Positions 18,325-42,497 of a DNA stretch of 64,000 nucleotides are shown here, piece after piece. The translations under genes and the position numbers were made by a program. The stretch covers positions 547,023 to 611,022 of the forward strand of contig NZ_JAJKFV010000011.1 in assembly GCF_020966775.1 (NCBI RefSeq), read 5' to 3'. Under the pieces are notes generated by a model, which was given only the letters and a program-made list of their open reading frames with translations, was not told where the DNA came from and did no database searches. This DNA comes from Rhodopirellula halodulae. Its GTDB lineage: Bacteria; Planctomycetota; Planctomycetia; Pirellulales; Pirellulaceae. Positions within the stretch are counted from its first letter, which is position 1; the number at the start of each line of letters is the position of its first letter.

Positions 18325-18812
18325 CGGATGAAACTCGACTGGCGGTTGCCGCGCTTGAGGACAAGACAGTCAATGAACTGCGATCGCTCTACGAAGAAGT
18401 GTTTGATGAAGTTTGTCGCAGTCGCCACAAGAAGTATTTGGTGCGACGAATCGCTTGGCGGCTGCAAGCGTTGGACGAAGGCGGGCTGAGCAACGAAGCG
18501 AAGCAGAAGGCTCGAGAGTTGGCGGCAACATCGGATCTTCGTATGACGGCTCCACGCGAAGAAGTTCTGGACAACGTTCGTCGGGCCACGCCGGAGGAAG
18601 ATGGGTACGTCGACTGGGATCCTCGCTTGCCACCGCCGGGCAGCTTTCTGGAGCGGCGATACAAGGGCCAGATGGTTCGGGTGCTCGTATTGACGGACGG
18701 ATTTGAGTACGAGGGCAAACGGTTTCGTTCGTTGTCGAAAGTCGCTGGCGAGATCACCGGGGTCAGCTACAACGGATTCCTCTTCTTTCGGCTCGGAAGG
18801 AGACAGAAATGA
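18321..18812 (+). CDS. DUF2924 protein
   Basis: 163 residues. Matches DUF2924: LRSLYEEVFDEV, HKKYLVRRIAWRLQALDEGG, then DPRLPPPGSFLERRYKGQ, VLVLTDGFEYEGKRFRSLS and YNGFLFFRLG. The family almost always sits directly before a large serine recombinase, as here (ATGA overlap at 18809). Function unknown; a role in recombination control or site recognition is inferred. GGAGGTGAG precedes the ATG. Confidence 0.9.
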   Translation: MTDETRLAVAALEDKTVNELRSLYEEVFDEVCRSRHKKYLVRRIAWRLQALDEGGLSNEAKQKARELAATSDLRMTAPREEVLDNVRRATPEEDGYVDWDPRLPPPGSFLERRYKGQMVRVLVLTDGFEYEGKRFRSLSKVAGEITGVSYNGFLFFRLGRRQK

Positions 18813-20383
18813 AAAAGAAAACGGAATCTGAACGGCGGATCATTCGGTGCGCGATTTACACTCGTAAGTCGACTGAGGAAGGACTCGATCAAGAATTCAA
18901 TTCGTTGGACGCCCAGCGTGAAGCCGGCGAGAACTTCATCGCCAGTCAATCGCAAGAGGGCTGGAAGGTCATTTCGACGAGGTACGACGATGGCGGCTAC
19001 TCGGGCGGCAACGTTGACCGGCCCGCGATGAAACGATTGCTGGAGGATATCGCGGCGGGCAAGATTGATTGCGTGGTCGTGTATAAGGTCGACCGATTGA
19101 GTCGTAGCTTGCTGGACTTCTCGAAGATCATGGAAACGTTCGACAACCATGGCGTGTCGTTCGTTTCGGTGACGCAGCAGTTCAATACGACGCACTCGAT
19201 GGGTCGGTTGACGTTGAATATTCTTCTTTCGTTCGCACAATTCGAGCGAGAGATCATCGGCGAGCGGATTCGCGACAAGATCGCGGCTCAGCGACGGCGT
19301 GGTAAATGGGCAGGCGGTATCCCGGTGCTGGGCTACGACGTCGACCGATCCGGGCCAAGCCCGAAGTTGGTGGTCAACGCGGACGAGGCGGCGAAGGTGC
19401 GGCGTATTTTTGGCTTGTACCTCGAGATGGAGTCGATGACGCCGGTGGTCGAAGAACTTGACCGTCGTGGATGGTGCTTGAAGTCTTGGAAAACGAAATC
19501 GGGAAAGACGAGAGGCGGCAAGCCGTTTGATAAATCGTCGCTGCACACAATGTTGACCAACCAAACCTACATTGGTCGGATCAAGCATAAGACGCAGACG
19601 TTCAAGGGTGAGCACACGCCGATCATTGACCAGAAGTTGTTCGACGATGTCGCGGCGATGATGCGTAGTCACGCTCGCGGCGGCGGCAATCACTTGGTCA
19701 ACAAGTATCAGGCGTTGTTGAAAGGTTTGATCTATTGCCCGGCGTGCAACTACTCAATGGTTCACAACGTCGCTCGCCGCCGGTCGAAAGTGTACCGCTA
19801 CTACACGTGTGTGACGGCAATCAAACGCGGGCGGAAGTATTGTCCGTCACCCTCGTTGCCAGCGGCTGATATCGAGGCCGCTGTGGTCGACCAGATTCGC
19901 TGCATCGCGGATGATCCAGGTTTGCGCCGCGATGTGCTGGAACAGTCGAGCAAACGTTGTGAAGCGGAGTTGGCGGAGTTGACTACCCAACGAACGCAGC
20001 TCACCCAACGGTTGAATCACCAGCACGAGCAGATGAAACATGTGAGCAATTCGACGGATGCCGGGTCTGGCGATTCAGAGCGATTGGCCGCATTGCACCA
20101 GGAGGTCGCCGGCATTATCGAGTCGCTTGAAATCGTTAACGGCGAGATCGAACGTTTGACTGCGGAACAGATCGACGAGCGTGATGTGAACGCCGCCTTT
20201 GCAGATTTTGGCAACGTCTGGAATGAGCTGAACACTCGCGAGAAGTCGGCGGTGCTGACGTTGCTGATCAGTCGGATTGAATTCGACGCAGACGAAAGCT
20301 CGCTTTCGATTTCGATGCACCCGGCGGGCATCAAAGCCTTTTCCGCCGAAGCGACCGAACAACAACAGGAGACGAATTCATGA
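18809..20383 (+). CDS. Large serine recombinase/integrase
   Basis: 524 residues. The resolvase catalytic domain comes first, with nucleophile Ser21 (IYTRKSTEEG) and KVDRLSRS plus LNILLSFAQFERE. The recombinase domain follows (PVLGYDVD ... VRRIFGLYLEM), then a zinc ribbon (YCPACNY ... YYTCVTAIKRGRKYC, about 309-350) and a C-terminal coiled coil rich in Gln/Glu. Such enzymes integrate or excise mobile DNA. The gene is intact and coupled to DUF2924 upstream and an HTH protein downstream. Confidence 0.95.
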   Translation: MKKKTESERRIIRCAIYTRKSTEEGLDQEFNSLDAQREAGENFIASQSQEGWKVISTRYDDGGYSGGNVDRPAMKRLLEDIAAGKIDCVVVYKVDRLSRSLLDFSKIMETFDNHGVSFVSVTQQFNTTHSMGRLTLNILLSFAQFEREIIGERIRDKIAAQRRRGKWAGGIPVLGYDVDRSGPSPKLVVNADEAAKVRRIFGLYLEMESMTPVVEELDRRGWCLKSWKTKSGKTRGGKPFDKSSLHTMLTNQTYIGRIKHKTQTFKGEHTPIIDQKLFDDVAAMMRSHARGGGNHLVNKYQALLKGLIYCPACNYSMVHNVARRRSKVYRYYTCVTAIKRGRKYCPSPSLPAADIEAAVVDQIRCIADDPGLRRDVLEQSSKRCEAELAELTTQRTQLTQRLNHQHEQMKHVSNSTDAGSGDSERLAALHQEVAGIIESLEIVNGEIERLTAEQIDERDVNAAFADFGNVWNELNTREKSAVLTLLISRIEFDADESSLSISMHPAGIKAFSAEATEQQQETNS

Positions 20384-20804: not shown

Positions 20805-21683
20805 TTAGAACGCCGGTGGCGTGATTCCCTTGGCTTTGAGGGCGGCTAGGTATTTGTCTGGTTCGGCGACCAACTTTTTGGCACAGCCGGGGCAGCAGAT
20901 GTAGACAGCTTTTCCATTGACATTGACCTTGCCTGGGACGCCCATGCCGCCCAGCGGTTCGTCCATCACGGGACAGGTTTTCTGTGCGGCGATTGCGGCA
21001 GCATCGGCAAGCGTCGATTTGAAAACGCCCTCGCGGACTTGTTCGCCTTTGGCGGTGTAGTACTTGGTGAGGTACTGGTCGGGTGAGGCTTCGACTTTCT
21101 TCGTGCAGCCCGCACAGCAGACGAAGAGTGACTTGTCACCGATTGTGATCTTGGGTGGCTTGCCCATGCTGCCGAGCGGTTGGCCGCTGACGGGGCACGT
21201 GGCTTGAAGGCTGATGAGGAGTTCGTCAGAGAGCTTACCGCTGGCGAGTTTGCCCATCGCATGGAAGACCAGAGGCTGGCTTCCGATGTTGGTGATCTCG
21301 ACGTTGATGTGCAACGGTCGATCGACGACTTTAGACAGGTCGATGCCGACGCCGATTGCTAGGTTTTTGAGCGTTTTGAGTTCGTAGGCGTATTCCTTTT
21401 CGCTGTCGCCGACTCGCAGTTTCAGTGTGCCGGTCGCGTCGGGCGGGGCGATCGGTTGGTCGTTCTTGCCAAGGATCATGAACATGATGCCTTTGTCGGC
21501 GATCACGGTTTCAACGCGGCGGTCGCCAACGGTTTGCACAGTGCCACCGTGCGGGCCAGTTGCCGCAGTGGCGTGACTGTGCCCAGCGTGGTCGTGTCCG
21601 GAGTGGACGTCCTGCGCGGTCGCGAGTTGGGGCGACGCGAACAGTGTGGCCGCGACAATTGCAGTGAGAATGCGAAGTTTCAT
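20805..21683 (-). CDS. Secreted metal-binding protein, GPHGG domain plus two CP..CCxxC (YHS/TRASH-like) repeats
   Basis: 292 residues with a signal peptide (cut near ATAQD) and a His-rich start. A beta domain opening GPHGGTVQTVG spans about 45-150. Two metal-binding repeats follow, CPVSGQPLGSMG ... FVCCAGCTKKV and CPVMDEPLGGMG ... YICCPGCAKKL, each with four Cys in CP-x(n)-CCxxC form. Paralogue of the four-repeat protein at 58491-59870. Probably binds Cu or a similar soft metal in the periplasm and delivers it to an RND pump. First gene of the metal island. Confidence 0.8.
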   Translation of the reverse strand: MKLRILTAIVAATLFASPQLATAQDVHSGHDHAGHSHATAATGPHGGTVQTVGDRRVETVIADKGIMFMILGKNDQPIAPPDATGTLKLRVGDSEKEYAYELKTLKNLAIGVGIDLSKVVDRPLHINVEITNIGSQPLVFHAMGKLASGKLSDELLISLQATCPVSGQPLGSMGKPPKITIGDKSLFVCCAGCTKKVEASPDQYLTKYYTAKGEQVREGVFKSTLADAAAIAAQKTCPVMDEPLGGMGVPGKVNVNGKAVYICCPGCAKKLVAEPDKYLAALKAKGITPPAF

Positions 21684-21732: not shown

Positions 21733-22155
21733 CTACTGATTCAACTTGGCGAGGTACTTGTCTGGGTCGGCGAGCAGCTTGTCTTTGCAGCCGTCGCAGC
21801 AAATCCACACTGACTTGCCGTTCACATCGACCTTTTCAGGGGCTCCCATCGTTCCAAGCATCTCGCCGCTGACGGGGCACATGTGTTGGGCCATGGCGGA
21901 CTTGTGATCTTCCGGCGATAGCTCTTTCAAGCCCGCCATCATCTTGGCCATTGGCGAATCGGAATCTGCGGTGGCGTGGTCGCCGTGATCGTGATCGGCG
22001 TGGTCGCCATGGTCATGGTCTGCGTGGTCCTCGGCCGTGTCGCTGGCGGGAGTCGCGGGTGGCGTCACAGGATCGGATTCGGGCGAGTTGCAGCCGAAAA
22101 TGCCGAGAATGAGCAACCCGCCGAGTAGAAACGGGATGAATTTCGTGAGTCGCAT
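21733..22155 (-). CDS. His-rich lipoprotein with one CP..CCxxC metal-binding repeat
   Basis: 140 residues from the ATG at 22155, chosen for its lipoprotein signal (LLILGIFGC). A HADHDHGDH-type His/Asp tract (about 42-58) precedes a helical segment and one repeat CPVSGEMLGTMG ... WICCDGCKDKL. Such a pair of sites would bind Zn or Cu at the membrane. It is 49 bases upstream of the two-repeat protein gene on the same strand, so they form a probable operon divergent from the anti-sigma gene. Confidence 0.8.
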   Translation of the reverse strand: MRLTKFIPFLLGGLLILGIFGCNSPESDPVTPPATPASDTAEDHADHDHGDHADHDHGDHATADSDSPMAKMMAGLKELSPEDHKSAMAQHMCPVSGEMLGTMGAPEKVDVNGKSVWICCDGCKDKLLADPDKYLAKLNQ

Positions 22156-22341
22156 GGGGTTTTGCCTTCGCGGATGAGGAGGGCGAATTTTTCGATTGAC
22201 GTGCATTTGGATACTTGGGCGGTCGCTTTCTTCACGCCGTGCGGAAAGAATTCTGCAAATTCACTGAAATGCGTGAATAAACACGTACTTCGGGCATCAA
22301 AAACACATCAGCAGAAGCGTCTCCCAGAGAATGAGTGGGTT

Positions 22342-30183: not shown

Positions 30184-30353
30184 GCCGCGACTAGGTCACT
30201 TCGTCTGCTGACCGGCGAACTCGGTTTGTAATTCCGGCTACGGATTTTCGCGCTTGGGTTCTCCCTTCTGGTTGGCTGCGATTTTAGTCGTTGTATGCGC
30301 TCGCGGTTGTTGCGTGCGCTGCTTGCACCGTCTCTAGCCAGCAAGGTTTTCCA

Positions 30354-32051
30354 ATGAGTCATCCGATTCCCCATGCGCCGAGAAAAAATCCTCGGCAAGA
30401 ACCCGTGAAGCCGTCCGTCAACGGACACAAGGTTCCAGACGCCAAAACTGAAATTACTCAGGACGGGAAATCAAAACCTCGCGGTCCCGTTCGCCGCGGT
30501 ATCTCGTTCGTGCTCGGTAGTATCGGACCGACGCTGGTTCTGGCCGGTTTCGCTGCCGTGTTTTGGTATGGGCATCACAACGATTGGCGGATTCCCAAAT
30601 TCGCCGCGTTAACCGGCGAAGTCGAACCGGTTGTCGATGATTGGTGTGAGGAACACGCGGTGCCGGAGTCCATTTGCGTCGAGTGCGATCCGACGTTGAT
30701 GCCCAAAGGACCGGACTACGGTTGGTGTTCGGATCATGGCGTTCACAACTGCGTGCTGGATCATCCCGATGTCGCGCAACTCAAGCAGCCGCCATCGCGG
30801 GGCGAGCTTGCGGCGGACTTGCAGCGTGCGGCCCGTGCGTTGGCGATTGCCCCGCGCAAGGAAAACAACAGCGGCTGCAAGATCTACCAAACGCGGATTC
30901 AGTTCGCGTCGATTGAAGCTGTGATGCAGGCGGGCGTTGATGTCGAACTGGTTGAGCGGCATCCGATTGTGGAGTCGATTTCTGGCAATGGTGAAATTGT
31001 CTACGACCCGACGCGGCAAGCCAAACTGGCGTCTCGCGTGCCGGGCAGCGTTTGGAGAGTTTTCAAGAATGTGGGGGACAAAGTCTCCAAGGGCGAAGTG
31101 TTGGTGGTCGTCGACGCGGTCGAAGTCGGGGAATTAAAAACCTCGCTGCTGCGTTCGCTCGCCGAAGAGAAGTTGCAACAACAGAACGTATCGCGTTTGA
31201 CCAAGGCACGAAGCGCGATTGCGGGGGCGAGAGTTCTGGATGCAGAGGCGGCGCTGGCTAAAGCACGTGCGGATGTCTTGAGTGCGGAGCAATCGTTGCG
31301 GAATCTGGGGTTGCCGGTTGACGTCAAACGGCTTCGGGGAATGGACGAACAACAGGTGCTCGATGAATTGCGTTTCATCGGTATTCCTTCGTCAATCCGC
31401 TCGCAACTCGACGCACAAAGCGACACTGCCAATCTGCTACCGCTTGCGTCGCCGATGGATGGGATCGTCATCGAGCGAACCGTGACGCCGGGCGAGGTGG
31501 TCAATCCGTCGCGGATGCTATTTCAAATCGGTAACACTCGCCAGATGTGGCTGCAACTGAGCGTGCCGCTGGAAAACATGGACCAATTGGCGATCGGGCA
31601 ACGCATCCGGTTCGCACCCGATGGCAGTCGTCAGGTCGTCGAAGGCGTGCTGGACTGGATCGACACATCGGCCGATCAAGACACTCGCATGTTGGAAGTG
31701 CGGGCGGTTCTGGCCAATGACGGCGGGCGGCTTCGAAACGAGACATTCGGCATGGGAGAGATCGTCCTGCGTGAGGAAGCCGATGCGATTGTCATTCCGA
31801 CCGGAGCGTCACATTGGGAAGGCTGTTGCCAAGTCGTCTTTGTTCGCGACAAGGATTATTTCTCCGGCCCCGACAGCTACAAGCTGTTCCACGTCCGCTC
31901 GGTTCGATTGGGTGCCCAAAACGGCGACATCACGGAAATCATCTCCGGTGTCTTGCCCGGCGAGGTCATCGCGACCGCTGGTAGCGACGTGCTGAAGGCG
32001 CAGTTACTGAAAAACAATCTTGGTGCAGGCTGCGACTGCGTCGCTGAATAG
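30354..32051 (+). CDS. RND periplasmic adaptor (CzcB-like) with WCxEH Cys motifs
   Basis: 565 residues from the ATG at 30354 (AAGG upstream; the frame is open to 30291). Basic cytoplasmic start, one membrane anchor (about 50-72), then a Cys/His segment at about 98-135 with WCEEHAVPESICVEC and WCSDHGVHNC. The membrane-fusion core follows (LASRVPGSVWRVFKNVGDKV, a coiled-coil hairpin, LASPMDGIVIERTVTPGEVV). The WCxEH motif recurs in the lipoprotein gene after the pump. Partner of the DFG-type pump 11 bases downstream. Confidence 0.92.
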   Translation: MSHPIPHAPRKNPRQEPVKPSVNGHKVPDAKTEITQDGKSKPRGPVRRGISFVLGSIGPTLVLAGFAAVFWYGHHNDWRIPKFAALTGEVEPVVDDWCEEHAVPESICVECDPTLMPKGPDYGWCSDHGVHNCVLDHPDVAQLKQPPSRGELAADLQRAARALAIAPRKENNSGCKIYQTRIQFASIEAVMQAGVDVELVERHPIVESISGNGEIVYDPTRQAKLASRVPGSVWRVFKNVGDKVSKGEVLVVVDAVEVGELKTSLLRSLAEEKLQQQNVSRLTKARSAIAGARVLDAEAALAKARADVLSAEQSLRNLGLPVDVKRLRGMDEQQVLDELRFIGIPSSIRSQLDAQSDTANLLPLASPMDGIVIERTVTPGEVVNPSRMLFQIGNTRQMWLQLSVPLENMDQLAIGQRIRFAPDGSRQVVEGVLDWIDTSADQDTRMLEVRAVLANDGGRLRNETFGMGEIVLREEADAIVIPTGASHWEGCCQVVFVRDKDYFSGPDSYKLFHVRSVRLGAQNGDITEIISGVLPGEVIATAGSDVLKAQLLKNNLGAGCDCVAE

Positions 32052-32062
32052 GGAGAGCACGG

Positions 32063-35000
32063 ATGCTTAATTGGCTCATTGATTTTTCGCTCAAGCACCG
32101 CGGATTGGTGATTGTGACGGCGTTGTTGTTTGCGGTTGTCGGCGGTTTCTCGCTGCAACAACTCGACATTGACGCATTTCCCGATACGACTCCGGTACAG
32201 ATTCAAATCAACACGGTTGCGCCGTCACTGGCCTCCGAAGAGATTGAACGCCAAATCACCTTTCCCGTCGAGCAAGCCATTAGCGGTTTGCCGGGACTGC
32301 ACGAACTGCGCTCGATTTCCAAGTTCGGGTTGTCGCAAGTCGTGGTCATCTTTGACGATGACATCGACATCTACTTCGCTCGGCAATTGATCAACGAAAG
32401 GCTTTCCACAGTCGAATTACCCGACGGAATTGGGCGGCCCCAAATGGGGCCTGTATCGACTGGGCTGGGTGAGGTCTTTCACTACGTCGTGGTCAATGAC
32501 GGTGTTGATCTTTCGCAGGTGTCGCGAGAGCAACGCGTCAAGCAATTGACCGAACTCCGCACGATTCATGACTGGGTCATCAAGCCTCAGCTTCGTTCGG
32601 TGCGTGGCGTGGCGGAAGTCAACAGTTGGGGCGGATATGAAAAACAGTATCAGGTGCGGATCGACCCGGACCTACTGCTCAAATACGGACTGACGTTCGA
32701 GCAAGTCAGCGAGGCAATTCAGGAGAACAACGAAAACGTCGGCGGCGGTACGGTGACCGATGGCAGTGAGATGCTGTTGGTCCACGGTGTTGGTCGGACG
32801 GTGAACATTGCACAAATCGAAGAAGTCATCGTCACGGCCAAAGACGGTGTGCCGGTTCGTGTTCGCGACGTGGCCGAGGTACAGATCGGTCACGAGATTC
32901 GTCGTGGTGCGGTCACGGCCAACGGTCGAGGCGAAGCCGTGCTGGGTCTCGGTTTCATGCTGATGGGCGAGAACAGTGACGAGGTCACATGGGCACTGAA
33001 GGAAAAGCTCGAACAGATTAAGGAAACCCTGCCTGCCGGTGTAACGATTCAAACGGTCTACGATCGGACGGAACTGATCGACCACGTCATCCATACCGTG
33101 CAGAAAAACTTGTTTGAGGGCGGCCTGCTGGTCATCGCCATCCTGTTCATTTTTCTTGGCAATTTGCGAGCCGGGTTGATCGTGGCTTTGGCGATTCCGT
33201 TGTCGATGCTGTTCGCGTTCTCGGGAATGTTGAAGTTTGGCATCGCCGCGAGTTTGCTCAGTCTCGGTGCGATCGACTTTGGATTGGTTGTCGATAGCAG
33301 TGTCGTGATGATCGAGAACTGCGTGCGGCATTTAGCACACAACCGGGACGGTAAGAGCCGCTTGGAGATTATTCGCGATGCAGCCATTGAAGTTCGCAAG
33401 CCGACGATGTTTGGCGAACTGATCATCATGATCGTCTATTTGCCGATCCTGACCCTGGAAGGCATCGAAGGAAAACTGTTTAGGCCGATGGCGTTGACCG
33501 TCATCATGGCACTCGCCGGTTCGATGATTCTTTCGCTGACGTTGATGCCCGTTTTGGCGAGCATCTTTTTGCCCAAAAACATCAAGGAAACGGAACCTTG
33601 GTTGATCCGCGTTCTGAAATGGCTGTACGCCCCGGTGCTGCGGTTCACCATGCATCACAAGGCGTTCGTGATTGGTTCGGCCGTGCTGTTGTTGGTCAGC
33701 GTTTTCACCCTCGTCGCACCTAACCTCGGCAGCGAGTTCGTGCCTCGACTTTCCGAAGGAGCCATTACGCTCAATGTTGTGCGTTTGGCGGGCACGCCGC
33801 TTGAAGAATCCATGCGTTACAACACGCGGATGGAGCAGGTGCTACTGGAAAAGTTCCCTGACGAAGTCAACCAAGTTTGGAGCCGCATCGGGACCGCCGA
33901 AGTCGCCACCGATCCGATGGGGACTGAACTTACCGACCTGTTCATCACGCTGCATCCCCGCGAGCAATGGACGCGGGCGGAAACGCAAGAGGAACTGACG
34001 ACTCTGGTGCAACGGGAGCTTCGCGATTTGCCGGGGCCGCGTTTGGCGTTGTCGCAACCGATTGAGATGCGAATGAACGAGATGATCTCGGGCGTTCGCT
34101 CGGACGTCGCGGCAATCCTGTACGGCGATGATCTCGATCTGATGAACGAGAAAGCAATCGAGATTGAACGGGCATTGAATTCGATTGCCGGGGCTTCGGA
34201 CGTGAAGATCGAGCAGATATCAGGTCAGCCGGTTTTGCAAATTCAAGTCAAACAGGATCAGATCGCTCGCTACGGTATCCCCGCCAGCACGGTGATGAAC
34301 ATCGTCCGCTCCTTGGGAAGCAATCATGTCGGCGAAGTCTACGAAGGGCAACTGCGATTTCCGTTGGTGATTCGATTGCCAGAAGAAGCAAGGTCTGACC
34401 CGGAAGCCATCGGTGAAATTTTGGTCGCGACGCCGTCGGGCCAACGCATTCCGCTTTCGCGTCTGGCCTCGATCGAGCGTGTGGAAGGTTTCAACACGAT
34501 CAAACGCGACTGGTATCAACGTCGCATCACGATCGAGGCGAATGTGCGTGGCCGCGACCTTGGCAGTTTCGTCGCCGAGGCACAGCAAGTCGTCGATGCC
34601 AAGGTTCAATTGCCCGCCGGTCGCTATCGCATCGAGTGGGGTGGGCAGTTTGAAAACCTCGAGCGAGCACAGACGCGGTTGATGATCGTCGTGCCGATCG
34701 CGCTGCTGTTGATCTTGGCATTGCTCTACACAACGTACCGCAACTGGATCGACTCGTTTCGTGTGTTCACGGGCGTTCCCTTCGCATGGATCGGCGGCGT
34801 GCTGGCGTTGTGGATTCGCGACATGCCGTTTTCGATTTCGGCCGCTGTTGGCTTCATCGCCTTGTCCGGCGTCGCGGTGCTCGATGACATGCTGCTGGTT
34901 TCAACGATCCGACAACTGCGACGGCGTGGGCGTTCGCTGGATGAAGCCGTCGAGGAAGCGGCAATGACAAGATTGCGTCCGATCCTGATGACCACGTTGG

Positions 35001-35305
35001 TGGCCAGCCTCGGCTTTGTGCCGATGGCCTTCAGCACGGGCATGGGAGCGGAAGTGCAACGACCGCTGGCGACGGTCGTGATCGGTGGCGTTTGCAGCGC
35101 CATGATCATGAGCCTGCTTGTACTTCGTGTGCTTTACGTGGTCTTCAACATGCCCACCGAGAGCCACGATGACGATGGAGGAGACGATGACGGTCATTGT
35201 CTTGAGCCGGAAGAACCGACCGACCCGGAGGCCGGACTGGAGTTTGATGCTTCGCAAGAGCGAGAGTCACAACGTTGGTCCGAACCGACGACGGTCACCC
35301 CCTAG
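32063..35305 (+). CDS. Heavy-metal RND efflux pump, CzcA-like (divalent cations predicted)
   Basis: 1080 residues, about the family length. The TM4 motif is AIDFGLVVDSSVVMIEN (Asp405, Asp411, Glu418), the DFG..D..E pattern of Zn/Co/Cd/Ni pumps. The porter part has IEMRMNEMISGVRSDVA, as in CzcA. Unlike the other three pumps in the window, it has no large insertion between TM6 and TM7. The C-terminal tail is acidic (DDDGGDDDGHC). GGGAGAG precedes the ATG. Confidence 0.95.
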   Translation: MLNWLIDFSLKHRGLVIVTALLFAVVGGFSLQQLDIDAFPDTTPVQIQINTVAPSLASEEIERQITFPVEQAISGLPGLHELRSISKFGLSQVVVIFDDDIDIYFARQLINERLSTVELPDGIGRPQMGPVSTGLGEVFHYVVVNDGVDLSQVSREQRVKQLTELRTIHDWVIKPQLRSVRGVAEVNSWGGYEKQYQVRIDPDLLLKYGLTFEQVSEAIQENNENVGGGTVTDGSEMLLVHGVGRTVNIAQIEEVIVTAKDGVPVRVRDVAEVQIGHEIRRGAVTANGRGEAVLGLGFMLMGENSDEVTWALKEKLEQIKETLPAGVTIQTVYDRTELIDHVIHTVQKNLFEGGLLVIAILFIFLGNLRAGLIVALAIPLSMLFAFSGMLKFGIAASLLSLGAIDFGLVVDSSVVMIENCVRHLAHNRDGKSRLEIIRDAAIEVRKPTMFGELIIMIVYLPILTLEGIEGKLFRPMALTVIMALAGSMILSLTLMPVLASIFLPKNIKETEPWLIRVLKWLYAPVLRFTMHHKAFVIGSAVLLLVSVFTLVAPNLGSEFVPRLSEGAITLNVVRLAGTPLEESMRYNTRMEQVLLEKFPDEVNQVWSRIGTAEVATDPMGTELTDLFITLHPREQWTRAETQEELTTLVQRELRDLPGPRLALSQPIEMRMNEMISGVRSDVAAILYGDDLDLMNEKAIEIERALNSIAGASDVKIEQISGQPVLQIQVKQDQIARYGIPASTVMNIVRSLGSNHVGEVYEGQLRFPLVIRLPEEARSDPEAIGEILVATPSGQRIPLSRLASIERVEGFNTIKRDWYQRRITIEANVRGRDLGSFVAEAQQVVDAKVQLPAGRYRIEWGGQFENLERAQTRLMIVVPIALLLILALLYTTYRNWIDSFRVFTGVPFAWIGGVLALWIRDMPFSISAAVGFIALSGVAVLDDMLLVSTIRQLRRRGRSLDEAVEEAAMTRLRPILMTTLVASLGFVPMAFSTGMGAEVQRPLATVVIGGVCSAMIMSLLVLRVLYVVFNMPTESHDDDGGDDDGHCLEPEEPTDPEAGLEFDASQERESQRWSEPTTVTP

Positions 35306-35335
35306 AAATTCGGCCCTGAGCCGAAGGAGAACAAG

Positions 35336-35698
35336 ATGAATTGGATGATGAATGGACGCGGCCTGATGTTTGGTTTGCTGGTAACAGCGGCGATCGGACT
35401 GGCAGGATGCAATAGCGACGACGTTGCTACCGAACCGGGCGTGGCGGAACCCGTCGCGGCCACAAACGTGGACCACAGCCACGGTGGTTGGTGGTGCGTC
35501 GAACACGGCGTGCCCGAGGAGGAATGTCCCCGATGCGACAAAACGCTGGTGTCCGAGTTCAAGGAAGCGGGCGATTGGTGCGACGAGCACGAGCGTCCCG
35601 AGTCGCAGTGTTTCATTTGCAGCCCCAAACGCGCCGAAAAGTTTGTCGCACGTTACGAAGCGAAGACCGGTCACCAACCGCCCGAACCGACCGAGTAA
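35336..35698 (+). CDS. Lipoprotein with two WCxEH..CxxC motifs
   Basis: 120 residues; strong ribosome site AAGGAG. Lipobox IGLAGC, then WWCVEHGVPEEECPRC and WCDEHERPESQCFIC, two copies of the Cys/His motif also present twice in the adaptor encoded at 30354-32051. A soluble, lipid-anchored domain matching part of the adaptor suggests metal delivery to the adaptor or competition with it. The WCxEHxxPExxCxxC pattern would suit Zn or Co. Confidence 0.78.
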   Translation: MNWMMNGRGLMFGLLVTAAIGLAGCNSDDVATEPGVAEPVAATNVDHSHGGWWCVEHGVPEEECPRCDKTLVSEFKEAGDWCDEHERPESQCFICSPKRAEKFVARYEAKTGHQPPEPTE

Positions 35699-35806
35699 TT
35701 TGCTCGAGCCAAGTGGCTGGGGGTGTGGTGGCTTCGACCAGCCCGTTGAAAACGCTCGCTCCCAGTCACTCTTTCGTCCCAACTCCCAACTCAAAAGGAG
35801 ATCGCC

Positions 35807-35812
35807 ATGTGA
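35807..35812 (+). other. Start-stop minimal ORF with strong ribosome site
   Basis: AAAAGGAGATCGCC is followed by ATG-TGA. It is 70 bases before the HMA gene. Either the fossil start of a lost gene or a regulatory start-stop element affecting the downstream message. Confidence 0.35.
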
Positions 35813-35882
35813 CACTCAGCCCCCATCCGAAAGGACTGACCATTTTGAAAACCACAATCTGTTACCTGGAAGGAATCTGAAA

Positions 35883-36230
35883 ATGTACCGCACCTCCCTC
35901 TGCCTTGCCCTGACGTTCGCCTTTGCCGTTTGCATGACCGCCCAAAGCCGAGTGGCCAATGCCGCTGGTGCTTCGACGACCAAAACCACCATCACCTTGA
36001 AGGTTCTCACCTGCGAGAACTGCGCCAAGAAGGTGGCGGCCAAGTTGAACGAAGTTCCCGGCGTCGAAAGCGTCAAGACGGACGTCAAATCCAAGACCGC
36101 GACCGTCGTTCCCAAAAGCAACGCGACCCCGTCGCCGTTGAAACTTTGGGAAGCGATCGAGAAGGCCGGTAAGGAACCAGTGAAGCTCGTCGGGCCGAGC
36201 GGAACGTTCACGTCCAAACCGAAGCAATAG
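35883..36230 (+). CDS. Secreted heavy-metal-associated (HMA) domain protein
   Basis: 115 residues from the ATG at 35883 (GGAAGGA upstream), although the frame stays open far upstream. Signal peptide ending near VANAAG, then an HMA ferredoxin-like fold with LTCENCAKKVAAKL and GVESVKTDVKSKTATV. The CxxC pair binds Cu(I) or Zn(II) in this family. Instead of the usual second half it ends in a Lys-rich tail. Export to the periplasm makes it a MerP-like metal carrier. Confidence 0.88.
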   Translation: MYRTSLCLALTFAFAVCMTAQSRVANAAGASTTKTTITLKVLTCENCAKKVAAKLNEVPGVESVKTDVKSKTATVVPKSNATPSPLKLWEAIEKAGKEPVKLVGPSGTFTSKPKQ

Positions 36231-36326
36231 TCTCACACCGACTCTCAATTGATACGCCGCCGATGTGGAGACTTCTTCCGCATCGGCGGCAGTCGGCCAA
36301 CGAATGTCGGAAGCCAACAACCACCT

Positions 36327-36779
36327 ATGCCATTTCACCAAACTCACCACATCGCCGCCGCGTTGATCGCTCTCGTTTTGCTAACCGTCGGATGCGATCG
36401 CGACTCATCGCCAACGAATGTAGTTCCGTCACCGACCAGCGCGGGACCGATTCAGTTGACGGATGATTCGTTTCAAGCTGAAGTCCTTGAAAGCGAACTC
36501 CCGGTGTTGGTCGATATGTGGGCACCGTGGTGCCAGCCCTGCATCGCGATGAAGCCGACGATACAGCGACTTGCATCGGAGTTGTCCGGAGATGTGAAAG
36601 TGGCCGAATTGAACATTGAAGAGAACCCGTTCATTCAACAAAAGTATGACATTGACAAGTATCCGATGCTATTGATTTTCGTCGATGGCATCGAGGTGCA
36701 AAGACTTGTGGGAAGCGAAACCCACGAGCAACTACTCGACGCGCTATCAAATCATGTAGCCGTGGAGAAACAACGATGA
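36327..36779 (+). CDS. Thioredoxin-fold lipoprotein
   Basis: 150 residues from the ATG at 36327, chosen for its lipoprotein signal (ALVLLTVGC). Thioredoxin domain with WAPWCQPCIAMKP and the cis-Pro segment KYPMLLIF. It is likely a reductant or disulfide exchanger facing the periplasm. The stop overlaps the ATG of the CYP152 gene (ATGA, 36776-36779), the first of three such junctions in the cassette. Confidence 0.9.
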   Translation: MPFHQTHHIAAALIALVLLTVGCDRDSSPTNVVPSPTSAGPIQLTDDSFQAEVLESELPVLVDMWAPWCQPCIAMKPTIQRLASELSGDVKVAELNIEENPFIQQKYDIDKYPMLLIFVDGIEVQRLVGSETHEQLLDALSNHVAVEKQR

Positions 36780-38035
36780 GCAAGCTGCCTGTAGAAACAA
36801 GACTCGATAGCACACTTGCGCTCGCACGCAATCCGTACCGTTTTGTTTCGTCACGATGCGAGAAGTTCAACACCGACGCATTTGAAACTCGGCTGTTGCT
36901 GCAAAAGGTCATTTGCATACGAGGCGAGGAAGCCGCCAAGGCGTTTTACGACACCTCGCGTTTCACCCGCGTCGGTGTCGCTCCGCCGCGAATCGCCAAG
37001 ACTTTGTTCGGACGCGGCGGGGTACAGGGCATGGACGGCAAGGCCCATCGTCATCGCAAGATGATGTTCATGTCGTTGCTGACCGAAGACAAAATTGGCG
37101 GACTGACGAGGCTTGCTCGTGACATTTGGAACCGTCGAATTCTGCAATGGTCACGCATGGATCAGGTCGTGCTTTACCGACAGGCTCAGGAAGTTCTCAC
37201 CGAAGCGGTTTGTCAGTGGGCAGGCGTGCCGCTCGATCCCGCCGATGTGGATCGCAGGACCAGCGAGCTGGCGGCGCTTTTTGACTATGCAGGCAGTATT
37301 GGTCCAAACCATTGGTGGGCAAGGATCGCACGCAAACGCAACGAGGCTTGGCTGCGTGGAATCATCGAACAAATTCGTGCTGGAACCTATCAACCCCTCG
37401 AAGACACCGCCGCATTCATCGTCGCCAACCATCGCGATCTCGATGGAAACTTGCTCGACGCTCAAATCGCTGCGGTCGAGCTAAACAACATTTTGCGTCC
37501 AACGGTCGCCGTGTCGGCTTACATCGTTCAGTGTGCGCACGCCTTGAACGAGCATCCTGTGATTCGCGAACAACTTCGCGATGGCTCCCCGGATGATTTG
37601 CATTGCTTTGTGCAGGAGGTCCGGCGTTACTATCCATTCTTTCCGTTTGCCGGAGCAAAGGTGAAAGAATCATTCGAGTGGCACGGTTACCACTTTCCGA
37701 GCGGTCGGAAGGTGCTGCTGGACCTATACGGCACCAACCATGATCCACGTCCTTGGAACCAGCCAGAATCGTTCAGACCATCCCGTTTTCGCGAATGGGA
37801 CGGGAATCCATTCACCTTGATACCTCAAGGCGGCGGCGATCACTACCAGAACCACCGCTGCCCCGGCGAATGGATCGCGATCGAGCAAATGAAAGCGGCC
37901 ACCGACGTGCTCGTCAACCGATGCAGCTACGAGATCCCGGAACAGGATTTGCAAATTGCGATTGATCGACTTCCCGCCATTCCCGCTGACCACTTTGCCA
38001 TGACGAACATTCAACTGCTAAGAGAAGTGCGATGA
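36776..38035 (+). CDS. Cytochrome P450 peroxygenase, CYP152-like
   Basis: 419 residues. Haem ligand Cys362 in GGGDHYQNHRCPGEW; ExxR in VQEVRRYYPFFPF. The I-helix reads NNILRPTVAVS, with Arg241-Pro242 where CYP152 fatty acid peroxygenases have Arg242-Pro243 instead of the usual acid-alcohol pair. Such enzymes use hydrogen peroxide and hydroxylate or decarboxylate fatty acids without a redox partner. The placement between a thioredoxin and two metal exporters, with overlaps on both sides, is unusual. Either lipid repair or peroxide removal during metal stress is possible. Confidence 0.93.
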   Translation: MSKLPVETRLDSTLALARNPYRFVSSRCEKFNTDAFETRLLLQKVICIRGEEAAKAFYDTSRFTRVGVAPPRIAKTLFGRGGVQGMDGKAHRHRKMMFMSLLTEDKIGGLTRLARDIWNRRILQWSRMDQVVLYRQAQEVLTEAVCQWAGVPLDPADVDRRTSELAALFDYAGSIGPNHWWARIARKRNEAWLRGIIEQIRAGTYQPLEDTAAFIVANHRDLDGNLLDAQIAAVELNNILRPTVAVSAYIVQCAHALNEHPVIREQLRDGSPDDLHCFVQEVRRYYPFFPFAGAKVKESFEWHGYHFPSGRKVLLDLYGTNHDPRPWNQPESFRPSRFREWDGNPFTLIPQGGGDHYQNHRCPGEWIAIEQMKAATDVLVNRCSYEIPEQDLQIAIDRLPAIPADHFAMTNIQLLREVR

Positions 38036-38676
38036 GCGAGGAACGAGCAAAATTGATACGCCGGGGTCGCAATGTCGAAATTGCCAGCCTGATCTACAAC
38101 ATCACCGAAGTGACCATTTCGCTAACGGCCGGATTCATGACGGGCAGTTCGGCGCTGATCAGTTGGGGCGTCGATAGCATCGTCGAAGCGAACTCCGCCG
38201 CGTTCATGATCTGGCAATTGAACGGCGAAGCCAAAGGTATCAACGAGCGAGACAAGCGGAAGAGAAAGAAGATCGCGTTAGGGGTTCTCTCGGGTGCCTT
38301 TACGATTGCTGTCTTATTCATCTGTTACGAGGCGATCAGCAAGTTCATCAGCCAAGAAACTGCGTCGATGTCGTGGTGGGGCATTGGCATCTTGCTGGTG
38401 TCGTTGGTCGTCAACCCGATGCTGGCATGGGGCAAGTATCGCTACGGCAAGAAGACCGATTCGGCGACTCTGAAATACGACGCCATTGACACGATGATCT
38501 GCGAGTACCAAACCATTGTCGTGCTGATCGGCGTCGGTCTGGTGCAGTGGCAAGGTTGGTGGTGGGCCGATCCGGTGGCTGCACTGTTGATCGTTCCCTA
38601 TGTGGCTTGGGAAGCCTACGAGTCTGGACGCGACGCATGGCAAGTTCAAATCGACGAGGAAGACAACGATGAGTGA
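38032..38676 (+). CDS. Cation diffusion facilitator-like transporter, membrane domain only
   Basis: 214 residues with about six transmembrane helices. ALISWGVDSIVEANSA (TM2) and KYDAIDTMICEY (TM5) hold the acidic/Cys residues where CDF proteins bind Zn. WWWADPVAALLI is the usual TM6. The cytoplasmic C-terminal domain of normal CDFs (about 90 residues) is absent. Exports divalent cations from the cytoplasm. Coupled by four-base and eight-base overlaps to the P450 and the P-ATPase. Confidence 0.82.
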   Translation: MSEERAKLIRRGRNVEIASLIYNITEVTISLTAGFMTGSSALISWGVDSIVEANSAAFMIWQLNGEAKGINERDKRKRKKIALGVLSGAFTIAVLFICYEAISKFISQETASMSWWGIGILLVSLVVNPMLAWGKYRYGKKTDSATLKYDAIDTMICEYQTIVVLIGVGLVQWQGWWWADPVAALLIVPYVAWEAYESGRDAWQVQIDEEDNDE

Positions 38677-40807
38677 TACAAACAACATGCAACTTAAAAT
38701 TCACGGCATGGATTGTGCCGAAGAAGTATCGTTGATCAAACGCGAACTGGTGCCGCTGCTCGGTGGCGATGAGCGTTTGGGTTTCGACTTGCTAAGTGGT
38801 CGACTAACCGTCGACCTCGATGGCGTTGACGTTACTTCCGGTGACGTGTTGGCGGCGATCGAGCGAACCGGGTTGAAAGCTGAAACGTGGGAGAACGCAC
38901 AACAGTCCTCCGACGACCAATCGTTCTGGGTCAAGCATCAGCGGGCGATCATGACCGCGATTAGCGGTGTGTTCGGCGGGATCGGGCTGGTGATTCATTT
39001 GCTCTCAGGCGGATTCGACGGGGCCGTCGCAACGCCCGCGATCGTTTGCTACCTGATCGGAATTTTGGCCGGGCTGTATTTGGTGCTACCGAAAGCTTGG
39101 CGAGCACTGGTCACCTTGCGGCCTGACATGAATTTGCTGATGTCGGTCGCGGTGATCGGGGCGATCGCGATCGGCGAATGGTTTGAGGGAGCGGCGGTCG
39201 CATTCCTGTTTTCGCTGTCGTTGTTGCTGGAATCATGGAGCATCGGTCGGGCTAGACGGGCGATCGCTTCGCTCATGGACCTGACGCCGCCGGTCGCTCA
39301 CCTGCGACACGAATCTGGAGAAGTCCGCGACGTTGTTCCTGCCGAGGTGCCGGTTGGTTCGACCCTGATCATTCGACCGGGCGAGAAAATACCGCTCGAT
39401 GGGGAAGTCACCGTGGGCATTAGCGACGTCAATCAGGCACCGATCACCGGCGAAAGCGTGCCAGTCGAAAAGCAGGTCGGTAGTGAGGTGTTCGCTGGAA
39501 CGATTAACGGCGACGGCTTGCTGGAAATGCGAAGCACCAAAGCCGCTGAAGACACGACGTTGGCCCGCATTATTCAGATGGTCGGCGACGCCGGATCGAA
39601 GCGTGCTCCGTCAGAAAAGTGGGTAGAGAAGTTTGCCGCGGTCTACACACCGGTGGTGATGGCGGTCGCGTTGTTGATGCTTTTAATTCCGACTTTGCTG
39701 CTCGGACAACCATGGTCGGTTTGGATCTATCGGTCGCTGGTGTTGCTGGTCATCGCCTGCCCATGTGCATTGGTCATTTCTACACCGGTGTCGGTCGTCG
39801 CATCGCTGGCCGCCGCTGCACGCAATGGCGTGTTGGTTAAAGGCGGCGTGTTCATCGAGCTACCTGGTAAGCTGGTCGCGATCGCGATGGATAAGACCGG
39901 GACGCTAACCAAGGGTGCCCCCGAAGTCATCGACGTCGTTCCGATGAACGACCACGACGAAGAAGAATTGCTAACGCGCGGCGGAGCCTTGGAACTCAAT
40001 AGCAACCATCCGCTCGCACGAGCCATCGTTGATGAAACCAAGAAACGTGGCATGACGATGCCGCCAGCCGAATCGTTCGAAACGATTCAAGGCAAGGGGG
40101 CGACCGGAGTCATTAATGGTAAAAGCTACTGGCTCGGTTCGCATCGCTATTTGGAACAACGCGGTCAGGAAACCCCGGAGGTTCACCAGCAACTCGAAGC
40201 GATGCAGGAGGCCGGGCGAACCGTCGTCGTGATCGGCAATGACCAGCACGTTTGCGGCTTCATTACGCTGGCCGATGCCATCCGTGACGAGACTCGAGAG
40301 GCAATCAAGACTTTGCACCAAGTCGGCATCAAGCAAATCGTGATGCTGACCGGCGACAACGAAGGCACCGCCAAAGCGATCGGCAAGGAGTCCGGTATCG
40401 ACGAAGTCCACGCGGAGTTGTTGCCTGAAGACAAAGTCGCGGCGGTCGAACAACTCGTTTCACGTTACGAGCATGTCGCGATGATAGGCGATGGCGTGAA
40501 TGACGCACCCGCCCTAGCCCGGGCTTCATTGGGACTTGCGATGGGAGCGGCGGGAAGCGACGCCGCGATTGAAACAGCAGACATCGCCCTCATGTCCGAC
40601 GACCTGTCGAAACTACCTTGGCTGATCGAGCACTCGCGACGAACGTTGTCCATCATTCGCCAGAACATTTGGTTTTCACTGGCAATCAAAGCATTGTTCG
40701 TCGTGCTGACCTTGGCGGGAGTGGCATCACTGTGGGCCGCCATCGCGGCCGATATGGGCGCTTCCCTACTGGTGATCGCCAATGGTCTGAGGCTGCTCCG
40801 CTGCTGA
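38669..40807 (+). CDS. Heavy-metal P1B-type ATPase (Zn/Cd/Pb class predicted)
   Basis: 712 residues from the ATG at 38669, overlapping the CDF stop. N-terminal HMA-like domain with GMDCAEEV (one Cys and two Glu, a variant seen in Zn/Cd pumps). Transport motif CPC (364-366), TGES phosphatase loop, DKTGTLTKG phosphorylation site (Asp near 408), GDGVNDAPALA, and a last helix with ADMGASLLVIANGLRLL carrying the Asp typical of ZntA. Exports divalent soft cations from the cytoplasm to the periplasm, feeding the RND systems. Confidence 0.96.
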   Translation: MSDTNNMQLKIHGMDCAEEVSLIKRELVPLLGGDERLGFDLLSGRLTVDLDGVDVTSGDVLAAIERTGLKAETWENAQQSSDDQSFWVKHQRAIMTAISGVFGGIGLVIHLLSGGFDGAVATPAIVCYLIGILAGLYLVLPKAWRALVTLRPDMNLLMSVAVIGAIAIGEWFEGAAVAFLFSLSLLLESWSIGRARRAIASLMDLTPPVAHLRHESGEVRDVVPAEVPVGSTLIIRPGEKIPLDGEVTVGISDVNQAPITGESVPVEKQVGSEVFAGTINGDGLLEMRSTKAAEDTTLARIIQMVGDAGSKRAPSEKWVEKFAAVYTPVVMAVALLMLLIPTLLLGQPWSVWIYRSLVLLVIACPCALVISTPVSVVASLAAAARNGVLVKGGVFIELPGKLVAIAMDKTGTLTKGAPEVIDVVPMNDHDEEELLTRGGALELNSNHPLARAIVDETKKRGMTMPPAESFETIQGKGATGVINGKSYWLGSHRYLEQRGQETPEVHQQLEAMQEAGRTVVVIGNDQHVCGFITLADAIRDETREAIKTLHQVGIKQIVMLTGDNEGTAKAIGKESGIDEVHAELLPEDKVAAVEQLVSRYEHVAMIGDGVNDAPALARASLGLAMGAAGSDAAIETADIALMSDDLSKLPWLIEHSRRTLSIIRQNIWFSLAIKALFVVLTLAGVASLWAAIAADMGASLLVIANGLRLLRC

Positions 40808-40940
40808 GACGTTAAAATCGTTACAACCCGATCGCGGATTCTTCCGAATGTTCGCACTTGCGGAATCGCAACTAACAATCCGATCGTACCCATCCGATGG
40901 AAAGCATGGGCTGGTCTGTATTTTCACGGAGGAAGACGCG

Positions 40941-42497
40941 GTGATCGCGAACGATAGGACCAGTACGCGCCGGCGGCGAGCAAGACGCTTGTTGCTTTTG
41001 GCGGCTTTGGGTTTCACGAGTGGTTGCCAGTCGGTTGGGCAGCATGTCGCTCAATCGACTTCGAGCGAACACGTCTCGGCGACGAACCAAACGCGGGTTG
41101 TTGAACCGCCTATCACCGTGCGGACGGTTGCGTTCACGGACGATGACGACTTGCAGGTCAGAGATCTTGGTGAATTGGACGAACTCGACGTCGAGCTTGA
41201 TGATTTGGATTCGGATGGTGGTGCCTCTGCCAACGATCCCGCGTCTCTACGCGACGCGATGGCTTTGGACGCGGCGAACGAGACGGTTGAAACCGCTCCG
41301 TTCATTCAGGACCAGTATTCCTACGGTTTTGAGCAACCCGCCGGACTGACGCTTCAGTCAATTGAGTCGATGGCATTGGGTTCGCATCCGGCCATCGCGG
41401 AAGCTCGTGCTCGTGTCGAATCAACTCGCGGGCAATACGTTCAAGCGGGCTTGCCGTTCAATCCGGTGCTGCAATATCAGTCGGATGAGATCGGCAACGA
41501 AGATGCCACCGGTCTGCATTCGGTGCAGATGTCTCAGCAGTTCGTTACCGCCAACAAGCTGGGGATTGCTCAACAGGTGCAGGCCCGCGAGATCCAAAAA
41601 CAGCAAGCTGCGCTGCGAATTGCGGAGCTTCGCGTTTTGACTCGCGTTCGTGCTGCGTTTGCGACAGCCATCGTATCGCAGCGAAGGGCCAACATTGCTG
41701 ACCAGATTGTCGAGTTGGCTGAGAAGTCGATCGAATCAGTGAATGCCCTGTTGGAAGCCGAAGAGGTTTCCAAAATTGCTTTGTTGCAGGCTCGCGTTGA
41801 AGCTGAGCAAGCGCGGATTACGGCGGAGAACGCTCGAACGCAGTTGCAAGCCAACCTGCGGACGCTTGCCGCTGCTGCCGGGATGCAAACACTGCCGCCC
41901 GGACCGCTTAGCGGCAACGTGGGTGACGATCTGACCGGCGCGCCGTGGGAAGCATTGCTCGCCGAAATCTCGACCAACAGTCCCGAACTATCGCGGGCCG
42001 GATCGGAGCTTGAGCGAGCTAAATGGTCGTTGCAACTTGCCTGTGCCCAAGTGACGCCGAACGTGACGGGAACCGTCGGTGTTGGTGTCGATGCCGCTAC
42101 GGATGATACGTTCGCGGTCATTGGCGTCAGCGTTCCGCTTCCCATTCGCAACCGCAATCAGGGCAACATACGCAGTGCCCGAGCCGACATCGCCGCAGCG
42201 TCGGCAGCGATCCAGAGCACGCAACTCAGCCTAGAAGCCCGGCTCGCCGAAGCCGTCGGCCGCTACCAAGTCGCGTTGGAACGCTACACCCGCTTGCAGG
42301 AATCGGTCGTGCCGACCTCGGAGGAAACCTACAAGCTCTCGTTGGAGGCATTTGATGCGGGCGAAACCGATTTCCTACAACTGTTAACAGCACAGCGAAC
42401 ACTCTTCACGACTCAATTGAACGTCCTGGATGCCGCCGGACAAGCCAAGCAGGCTGCTGCGGAAATCGAAGGCCTGTTGGTGACTCTGAGCCTGTGA
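40941..42497 (+). CDS. TolC-family outer-membrane lipoprotein (CusC/CzcC-like)
   Basis: 518 residues from the GTG at 40941 (GGAGGA 8-13 bases upstream; the ATG at 40848 would place a poor leader before the lipobox GFTSGC). A long acidic low-complexity stretch (DELDVELDDLDSDGG) separates the lipid anchor from the two outer-membrane efflux repeats, which show long coiled-coil helices and SLEAFDAGETDFLQLLTAQR near the end. Forms the exit channel for an RND pump. The adaptor it serves is not fixed by the order. Confidence 0.9.
   Translation: MIANDRTSTRRRRARRLLLLAALGFTSGCQSVGQHVAQSTSSEHVSATNQTRVVEPPITVRTVAFTDDDDLQVRDLGELDELDVELDDLDSDGGASANDPASLRDAMALDAANETVETAPFIQDQYSYGFEQPAGLTLQSIESMALGSHPAIAEARARVESTRGQYVQAGLPFNPVLQYQSDEIGNEDATGLHSVQMSQQFVTANKLGIAQQVQAREIQKQQAALRIAELRVLTRVRAAFATAIVSQRRANIADQIVELAEKSIESVNALLEAEEVSKIALLQARVEAEQARITAENARTQLQANLRTLAAAAGMQTLPPGPLSGNVGDDLTGAPWEALLAEISTNSPELSRAGSELERAKWSLQLACAQVTPNVTGTVGVGVDAATDDTFAVIGVSVPLPIRNRNQGNIRSARADIAAASAAIQSTQLSLEARLAEAVGRYQVALERYTRLQESVVPTSEETYKLSLEAFDAGETDFLQLLTAQRTLFTTQLNVLDAAGQAKQAAAEIEGLLVTLSL

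Follow-up and report, generated by a model that had tools for sequence, protein, structure and literature searches.

We analysed a window of 64,000 nucleotides (the whole stretch under study) from Rhodopirellula halodulae, whose genome is 6.6 Mb (assembly GCF_020966775.1, contig NZ_JAJKFV010000011.1, positions 547,023 to 611,022 of the forward strand), in which a cytochrome P450 gene is embedded in a cassette of metal exporter genes. The cassette comprises four genes on the + strand at 36327-40807, joined by overlaps. They code for a thioredoxin (TRX; 36327-36779, PF00085), a CYP152-type P450 fatty-acid peroxygenase (36776-38035, PF00067), a cation diffusion facilitator (CDF) transporter (38032-38676) and a heavy-metal translocating P1B-ATPase of the Zn/Cd type (38669-40807). 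The overlaps measure 4, 4 and 8 bases, with ATGA at 36776 and at 38032 and the 8 shared bases at 38669. An initial annotation, made from the DNA letters, had placed the four genes and their overlaps at these very positions and had noted Arg241-Pro242 and Cys362 of the P450 as a CYP152 pattern; both the layout and the residues were found as described. The TRX shows a lipobox (LTVGC) and a WCQPC active site, motifs that were recognised by eye. The closest named loci come from planctomycetes such as Rhodopirellula.

Residues 3-413 of the P450 match the structure 3awq, a 'fatty acid alpha-hydroxylase', with 480 bits, and its other best solved relatives are fatty-acid peroxygenases. We take 3awq to be SPalpha, i.e. 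CYP152B1. In the P450, Gln84, Arg241 and Pro242 occupy the SPalpha positions, and Cys362 is the haem ligand. Excerpts of PMC5818669 name the SPalpha residues Gln84 and Arg241-Pro242 and give as a rule for CYP152 enzymes that a carboxylate-binding Arg-Pro replaces the acid-alcohol pair; according to the same excerpts, the related enzymes act on fatty acids. The window P450 has both the Arg-Pro and the haem Cys that define the family. Among the CYP152 sequences with data, Gln84 is found in 42 of 42 and the Arg-Pro/Cys combination in 41 of 41, and as the catalytic residues are conserved across the set, the enzyme looks intact. An OleT-type decarboxylase, which would have a His at the Gln84 position, is not supported by these 42 sequences, all with Gln; the Q/H contrast is taken from excerpts of PMC5818669, in which that residue is doubted as the sole determinant. 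The score against the CypC equivalog NF053744 is 560.3 bits, short of the cut-off of 600, and we therefore name the protein CYP152-type rather than CypC itself. No second P450 match of this kind was found in the genome. Like SPalpha and other CYP152 peroxygenases, the protein combines a near-full-length match with Gln84, Arg241, Pro242 and the haem Cys; unlike them, its gene is overlapped by metal-transporter genes.

The CDF reaches its family with PF01545 (74.9 bits) and TIGR01297 (86.9 bits), and its residues 18-211 align with FieF structures. Most members of the CDF family have a cytoplasmic C-terminal domain. In contrast, the alignment shows that the window CDF ends at 214 residues, without this domain. 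Its D48, E52, D153 and C157 stand at the FieF positions D47, D51, H155 and D159, which we take to be site A, so that the D/D/H/D set of FieF is not found; in 13 of 13 homologues of the window CDF, these positions hold D, E, D (once E) and C. By its sequence features, the window CDF is thus a member of an unusual subfamily, akin to YiiP/FieF in family scores and alignment but different in its missing C-terminal domain and its site-A residues. The cysteine at the predicted transport site suggests a thiophilic metal. The ATPase shares with ZntA/CadA-type P1B-ATPases scores above the cut-offs of TIGR01525 (606 bits) and TIGR01512 (517 bits, cut-off 313.5), but it lies below the ZntA equivalog cut-offs (PRK11033, 596.7 bits against 1005). 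As a separate observation on CDFs, a full-length relative present as two matched pieces adjoins a window-type CDF in another locus (L037 5095-5938), without CYP152.

The initial annotation had named a gene order confined to this genome as a finding that would speak against it. This is not what we see, since P450 and metal exporters are paired again in several planctomycetes and on plasmids from other phyla. Seven planctomycete loci, the window included, have P450s at least 82% identical, and the metal-gene clusters around them differ in layout. Scanning genome contigs yielded five loci, four of them planctomycete: Rhodopirellula sp. JC639, whose locus is 98% identical over 9.9 kb, Aporhodopirellula aestuarii, the metagenome-assembled genome KLAP214 and R. 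maiorica, where the contig breaks off within the P450. With G196, a genome assigned to another genus, the window shares 52.7 kb at 99.1% identity, corresponding to window coordinates 17590-70273 (right end in L016). Beyond this stretch, the flanks match at 94%, at 85% further right, or hardly at all, and a serine-recombinase-like gene lies near its left border (18809-20383). The shared stretch looks like a recently shared metal island. The seventh P450, on plasmid pK2D_1 (K2D), is 82% identical to that of the window. The near-identical stretch of G196, the unusual CDF subfamily and the optional nature of the P450 described below had escaped the initial annotation.

The TRX gene directly precedes the P450 gene in five of the seven loci (judged by DNA identity for G196 and JC639), and a second CDF gene lies between them in A. 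aestuarii and K2D. Downstream of the P450, CDF and ATPase genes follow in the window, G196 and A. aestuarii; K2D has a CDF there without ATPase, its ATPase gene being upstream, and KLAP214 has a gene resembling an exchanger by eye. The sequence ends inside the P450 in R. maiorica and after the CDF in JC639, which sets the limit of the downstream genes there. The A. aestuarii P450 (L003 7980-9260) differs from that of the window mostly over the first ~40 residues and resembles it much more closely after them, as if recombined, again by eye. Genes of CYP152 type are rare: counting the window's genome, they are present in 4 of 246 genomes of an order sample (E 1e-30) and 7 of 392 of the phylum (E 1e-60). 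At one of nine other planctomycete places (G429; L061 4739-9548), a distant CYP152 is found beside P-ATPase, CadD-like and ArsR-like genes, possibly a separate case.

CYP152 genes were detected in 108 plasmid records (E 1e-40). We picked 26 regions of these records to span organisms and identities; for four of them (L021, L024, L045 and L052) we already knew of an lspA or CDF label when picking. Other metal operons, on plasmids of Alphaproteobacteria, Actinomycetota and one Bacillota, have CYP152 genes of ~44-57% identity within them or next to them. The order ArsR - HMA-CDF (HMA, heavy-metal-associated) - LspA - P450 is followed by a sodium/calcium-type exchanger in NT-25 (a short exchanger piece) and in Indioceanicola, and by a convergent window-type CDF in Sulfitobacter and Marinibacterium. 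The order is ArsR - CDF - CcdA - LspA - P450 in Ancylobacter, with an exchanger added in Pelagibacterium and Jiella, P450 - MAPEG - P-ATPase - LspA in Agrobacterium, and TlpA - P450 - ArsR - P-ATPase - LspA - CcdA - cadmium transporter in Arthrobacter. A plasmid CYP152 of S. paucimobilis (L026), 51% identical to the window P450, is inside a copper/mercury gene cluster. In Cytobacillus, the sole Bacillota case, lspA lies 1.5 kb and a P-ATPase gene, preceded by an ArsR gene, 4 kb from the P450, and the metal genes do not form one gene run with it.

By the reference proteins, no metal transporter was found within 6 kb of the P450 in 7 of the 26 regions, namely those of Alteromonas, Stanieria, S. 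meliloti, Priestia, Aurantiacibacter, L. plantarum and S. saprophyticus; of these, a gene annotated 'metal transporter' and multicopper oxidase genes are present at the S. meliloti locus, and that of Alteromonas includes a gene for a CopD-family protein. A metal link common to all CYP152s is rejected, as none is seen in L. plantarum, S. saprophyticus, Priestia, Saccharibacillus and 8 of the 9 other planctomycete places. As for regulators, all three ArsR-type proteins tested from other loci have the Cd/Pb sensor CmtR as their best specific model, below cut-off, and the one MerR-type regulator tested scores best against CadR-PbrR, below cut-off and narrowly over MerR. These nearest models would weakly point to Cd or Pb. 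Lead and cadmium resistance operons of the pbr type have a prolipoprotein signal peptidase gene, and the alphaproteobacterial loci likewise have an efflux gene, lspA and an ArsR- or MerR-type regulator. They differ from the pbr type in carrying CYP152 and CDFs without C-terminal domain, and the window cassette differs in having no lspA.

The association between the P450 and metal exporters was compared with chance in several ways. Pfam scans of the 26 whole CYP152 plasmids located CDF, LspA and P-ATPase genes, and the P450 positions were shuffled 1000 times, which leaves the clustering of metal genes into islands unmodelled. Split hits were merged, and the coordinates for this test, for the CDF distances and for the HMA-CDF counts were transcribed by hand. 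A CDF gene lies within 1.5 kb of the P450 gene in 12 of 26 plasmids (random mean 1.6), an LspA gene in 12 of 26 (0.9) and any of the three in 17 of 26 (3.05), counts that 0 of 1000 shuffles reach in each case. Within 5 kb, P-ATPase genes are also enriched (9 against 3.2). Any metal transporter occurs around the P450 in 19 of 26 regions, or 15 of 22 without the four label-guided picks, and in 3 of 24 control stretches; the tblastn references of this comparison come partly from the same loci, so that its counts lean upward, and the Pfam counts are unaffected. The controls were taken at hand-chosen places far from the P450 on 24 of the 26 plasmids (two small ones were omitted), three of 8.5-10 kb and the rest of 13 kb. 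ArsR-type regulators are present within 6 kb of the P450 in 11 of 26 regions and in 0 of 24 controls. Redox or lipid-peroxide genes, namely those for CcdA (7 of 26), MAPEG (4), Trx/TlpA (4) and peroxiredoxin (2), were each found in 0 of 24 controls.

Two further comparisons start from the CDFs and are independent of our choice of P450 loci. Window-type CDFs of at least 60% identity occur in 14 plasmid records; 12 of these have a CYP152 gene 0-41 bases from the CDF gene, and none was found in the stretches read of the remaining 2. The two genes are on the same strand in K2D and convergent in the Rhodobacterales examined. Furthermore, 25 of the best 60 HMA-CDF records have a CYP152 on their plasmid, at a distance of no more than 3 kb in 20 cases against 0.09 expected; this overlap counts records common to two best-60 lists, with 48 of the 108 CYP152 records outside the list, and its hypergeometric values ignore plasmid relatedness, several Sulfitobacter records being near-copies. 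The P450 is associated with metal exporters, in several phyla and with several exporter types, and the initial annotation was right to describe it as CYP152-like and coupled to them. Among the CDF partners of CYP152, visual inspection of the alignment distinguishes three subfamilies, all without C-terminal domain. In a CYP152 tree of 39 rows, the metal label requires 7 gains or losses, of which well-supported branches impose at least 6, and shuffled labels require 12.2; the labels were assigned by us, with L051 (lspA only) counted as 'metal' and L002, L006 and L011 left out.

The recurrence of CYP152 in metal operons suggests a role for these enzymes in cell survival under toxic metals. The initial annotation had proposed either the consumption of peroxide arising under metal stress or a change of fatty acids that lets membranes tolerate metals, and both are possible. 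Our preferred reading, which we put forward tentatively, is that the P450 is an optional accessory protective enzyme of mobile metal-resistance modules, which would spend peroxide on free fatty acids. A mobile module made of an outward TRX, a CDF and a P1B-ATPase beside CusBA pumps would have taken up an optional CYP152 peroxygenase. We infer the metal dependence, the substrate and the function of the P450 as follows. On arrival of thiophilic metals (Cd, Pb, Zn or Cu), the P450 would be made together with the exporters. The CDF, the P-ATPase and CusBA would export the metal, and the outward TRX might keep envelope thiols reduced. The P450 would use the H2O2 of metal-stressed cells to hydroxylate, in alpha or beta position, free fatty acids from damaged envelope lipids. 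It might thereby provide both a peroxide sink and lipid protection alongside the thiol-repair genes (TRX, TlpA, CcdA), in loci where lspA is another frequent neighbour, with MAPEG or peroxiredoxin in a few of them.

Several observations weigh against an accessory protective role. The module exists without the enzyme: a genome of the same family (G160) has CusA - lipoprotein - TRX - CDF - ATPase, and no P450 is seen in that stretch. No CYP152 was found in ~16.7 kb around the CDF in four further genomes of the same taxonomic order (G099, G081, G075 and G166; CDF ~74-80%), one of whose CDF copies has two stops, nor in G063 (CDF 46%). Similarly, for 40 of the 60 HMA-CDF plasmids on the list, no CYP152 is listed at 3 kb or less. 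At 8 of the 9 other planctomycete CYP152 places (36-52%), none of 25 reference neighbour proteins has a match in 11-20 kb. On the plasmids, P-ATPase genes are not enriched within 1.5 kb of the P450 (3 of 26 against 1.3, reached by 133 of 1000 shuffles), and the excesses of MAPEG, Trx/TlpA and peroxiredoxin are each non-significant alone. At the window itself, no catalase gene was seen in the cassette, and reading of the genes adjoining the operon identified no metal regulator, no systematic search having been made. A strict, obligate coupling of the P450 to the module is rejected, since no CYP152 was found in the TRX-CDF-ATPase stretch of G160 and none is listed within 3 kb on many HMA-CDF plasmids. 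That many similar modules lack the P450 speaks against its being essential for export.

The main rival to the accessory protective role is envelope remodelling, which we hold to be rather unlikely. The P450 would make 2- or 3-hydroxy fatty acids for membrane or lipid A-type lipids, and the hydroxy-acyl lipids would alter packing and metal binding such that the envelope tolerates the metal. This fits the action of related enzymes on fatty acids (excerpts of PMC5818669), the rank of lspA, an envelope lipoprotein gene, as the most enriched neighbour, the annotation of lgt in two loci and a PEMT-type methyltransferase near one. On a Phycisphaera mikurensis plasmid (L036 7965-11742), a window-type CDF is followed by an ATPase and the lipid A deacylase LpxR, and no P450 was found in the stretch read. 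However, the LpxR case is single, and besides lgt no recurring gene for acyl transfer or fatty-acid activation was seen beside the P450 in the annotation tables, which are incomplete.

Alternatively, CYP152 might be ordinary cargo of frequently moving metal islands, with no role in metal tolerance. The 99.1% identity of 17590-70273 with another genus, near a serine-recombinase-like gene, would be expected of such cargo, as would an optional P450 and the fact that some CYP152 plasmid genes have no metal transporter detected nearby, and the position shuffles do not model the clustering of metal islands. Nevertheless, we find this improbable. The P450 gene repeatedly overlaps or closely adjoins CDF or lspA genes, with CDFs of three subfamilies and in both relative strand orientations. 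In the tree, the metal label, for all its at least 6 changes, shows tighter clustering than when labels are shuffled (7 against 12.2), and the active-site residues are kept. That an intact enzyme is found with exporters again and again speaks most strongly against a mere passenger. Least credible is a role away from fatty acids, in which the P450 would oxidise a metal-complexing or signalling molecule or act as a haem-based peroxide sensor: we know of no substrate for this CYP152 clade and the CypC cut-off is not reached (560 bits against 600), but the carboxylate-binding Arg-Pro and Gln84 are kept as in SPalpha and the best solved relatives are fatty-acid peroxygenases.

Beyond the window, a CYP152 clade may possibly have a dedicated, undescribed role in tolerance to thiophilic metals, a proposal we make with reserve. 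Exporter operons of Planctomycetota, Pseudomonadota and Actinomycetota would have acquired its members, which also lie near one such operon in Bacillota. These enzymes would be paired with CDFs without C-terminal domain, one subfamily of which has an Asp-Glu/Asp-Cys transport site, and with an envelope lipoprotein and thiol repair set of LspA, CcdA and TlpA/TRX, coupling peroxide removal to lipid hydroxylation. The titles of papers indicate that CYP152 enzymes have mostly been studied as biocatalysts, and according to excerpts of PMC7438502, physiological functions have been characterised for no more than a handful of P450s from Firmicutes. A recurrent genomic home in metal operons offers a direct, testable hypothesis for the CYP152 clade. 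If it is true, metal-resistance plasmids carry a layer of lipid or peroxide defence that the label 'cytochrome P450' conceals, and the paired CDF subfamily, whose predicted transport site includes a cysteine, becomes a new target for work on metal specificity. We found no paper describing a CYP152 in a metal operon, in a search with subscription journals mostly outside it, which is weak evidence of novelty; this agrees with the initial annotation, in which the module was deemed not previously described, and is no proof of it. In excerpts of PMC12416667, heavy metals are mentioned for environments and sampling sites, with no operon.

The surroundings of the cassette are also rich in metal-related genes. 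Upstream, genes for a CusB-like adaptor and a CusA-like resistance-nodulation-division (RND) pump occupy 30291-35305 (+ strand), in the same order as in L004 and L006; the names were given from sequence reading and from homologues annotated czcB and czcA in K2D. More CusA-like pumps flank the region on both sides. Between the pump and TRX genes, both on the + strand, are genes for a small Cys/His-containing lipoprotein-like protein of 120 residues (35336-35698), 72-74% identical in L003, L004 and L006, for which no Pfam or NCBIfam family was reached at E 0.001, and for an HMA-domain protein (35883-36230, PF00403) with a signal-peptide-like start by eye, kept in the same three loci. A promoter and terminator scan of 35200-41000 gave nothing above shuffles, and no tRNA genes were found in the window. 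Finally, three translated stretches beside RND genes (20805-21683, 21733-22206 and 58491-59870) contain repeated CPV(M/S)...CC.GC.KK motifs, which resemble metal-binding, YHS-like motifs.

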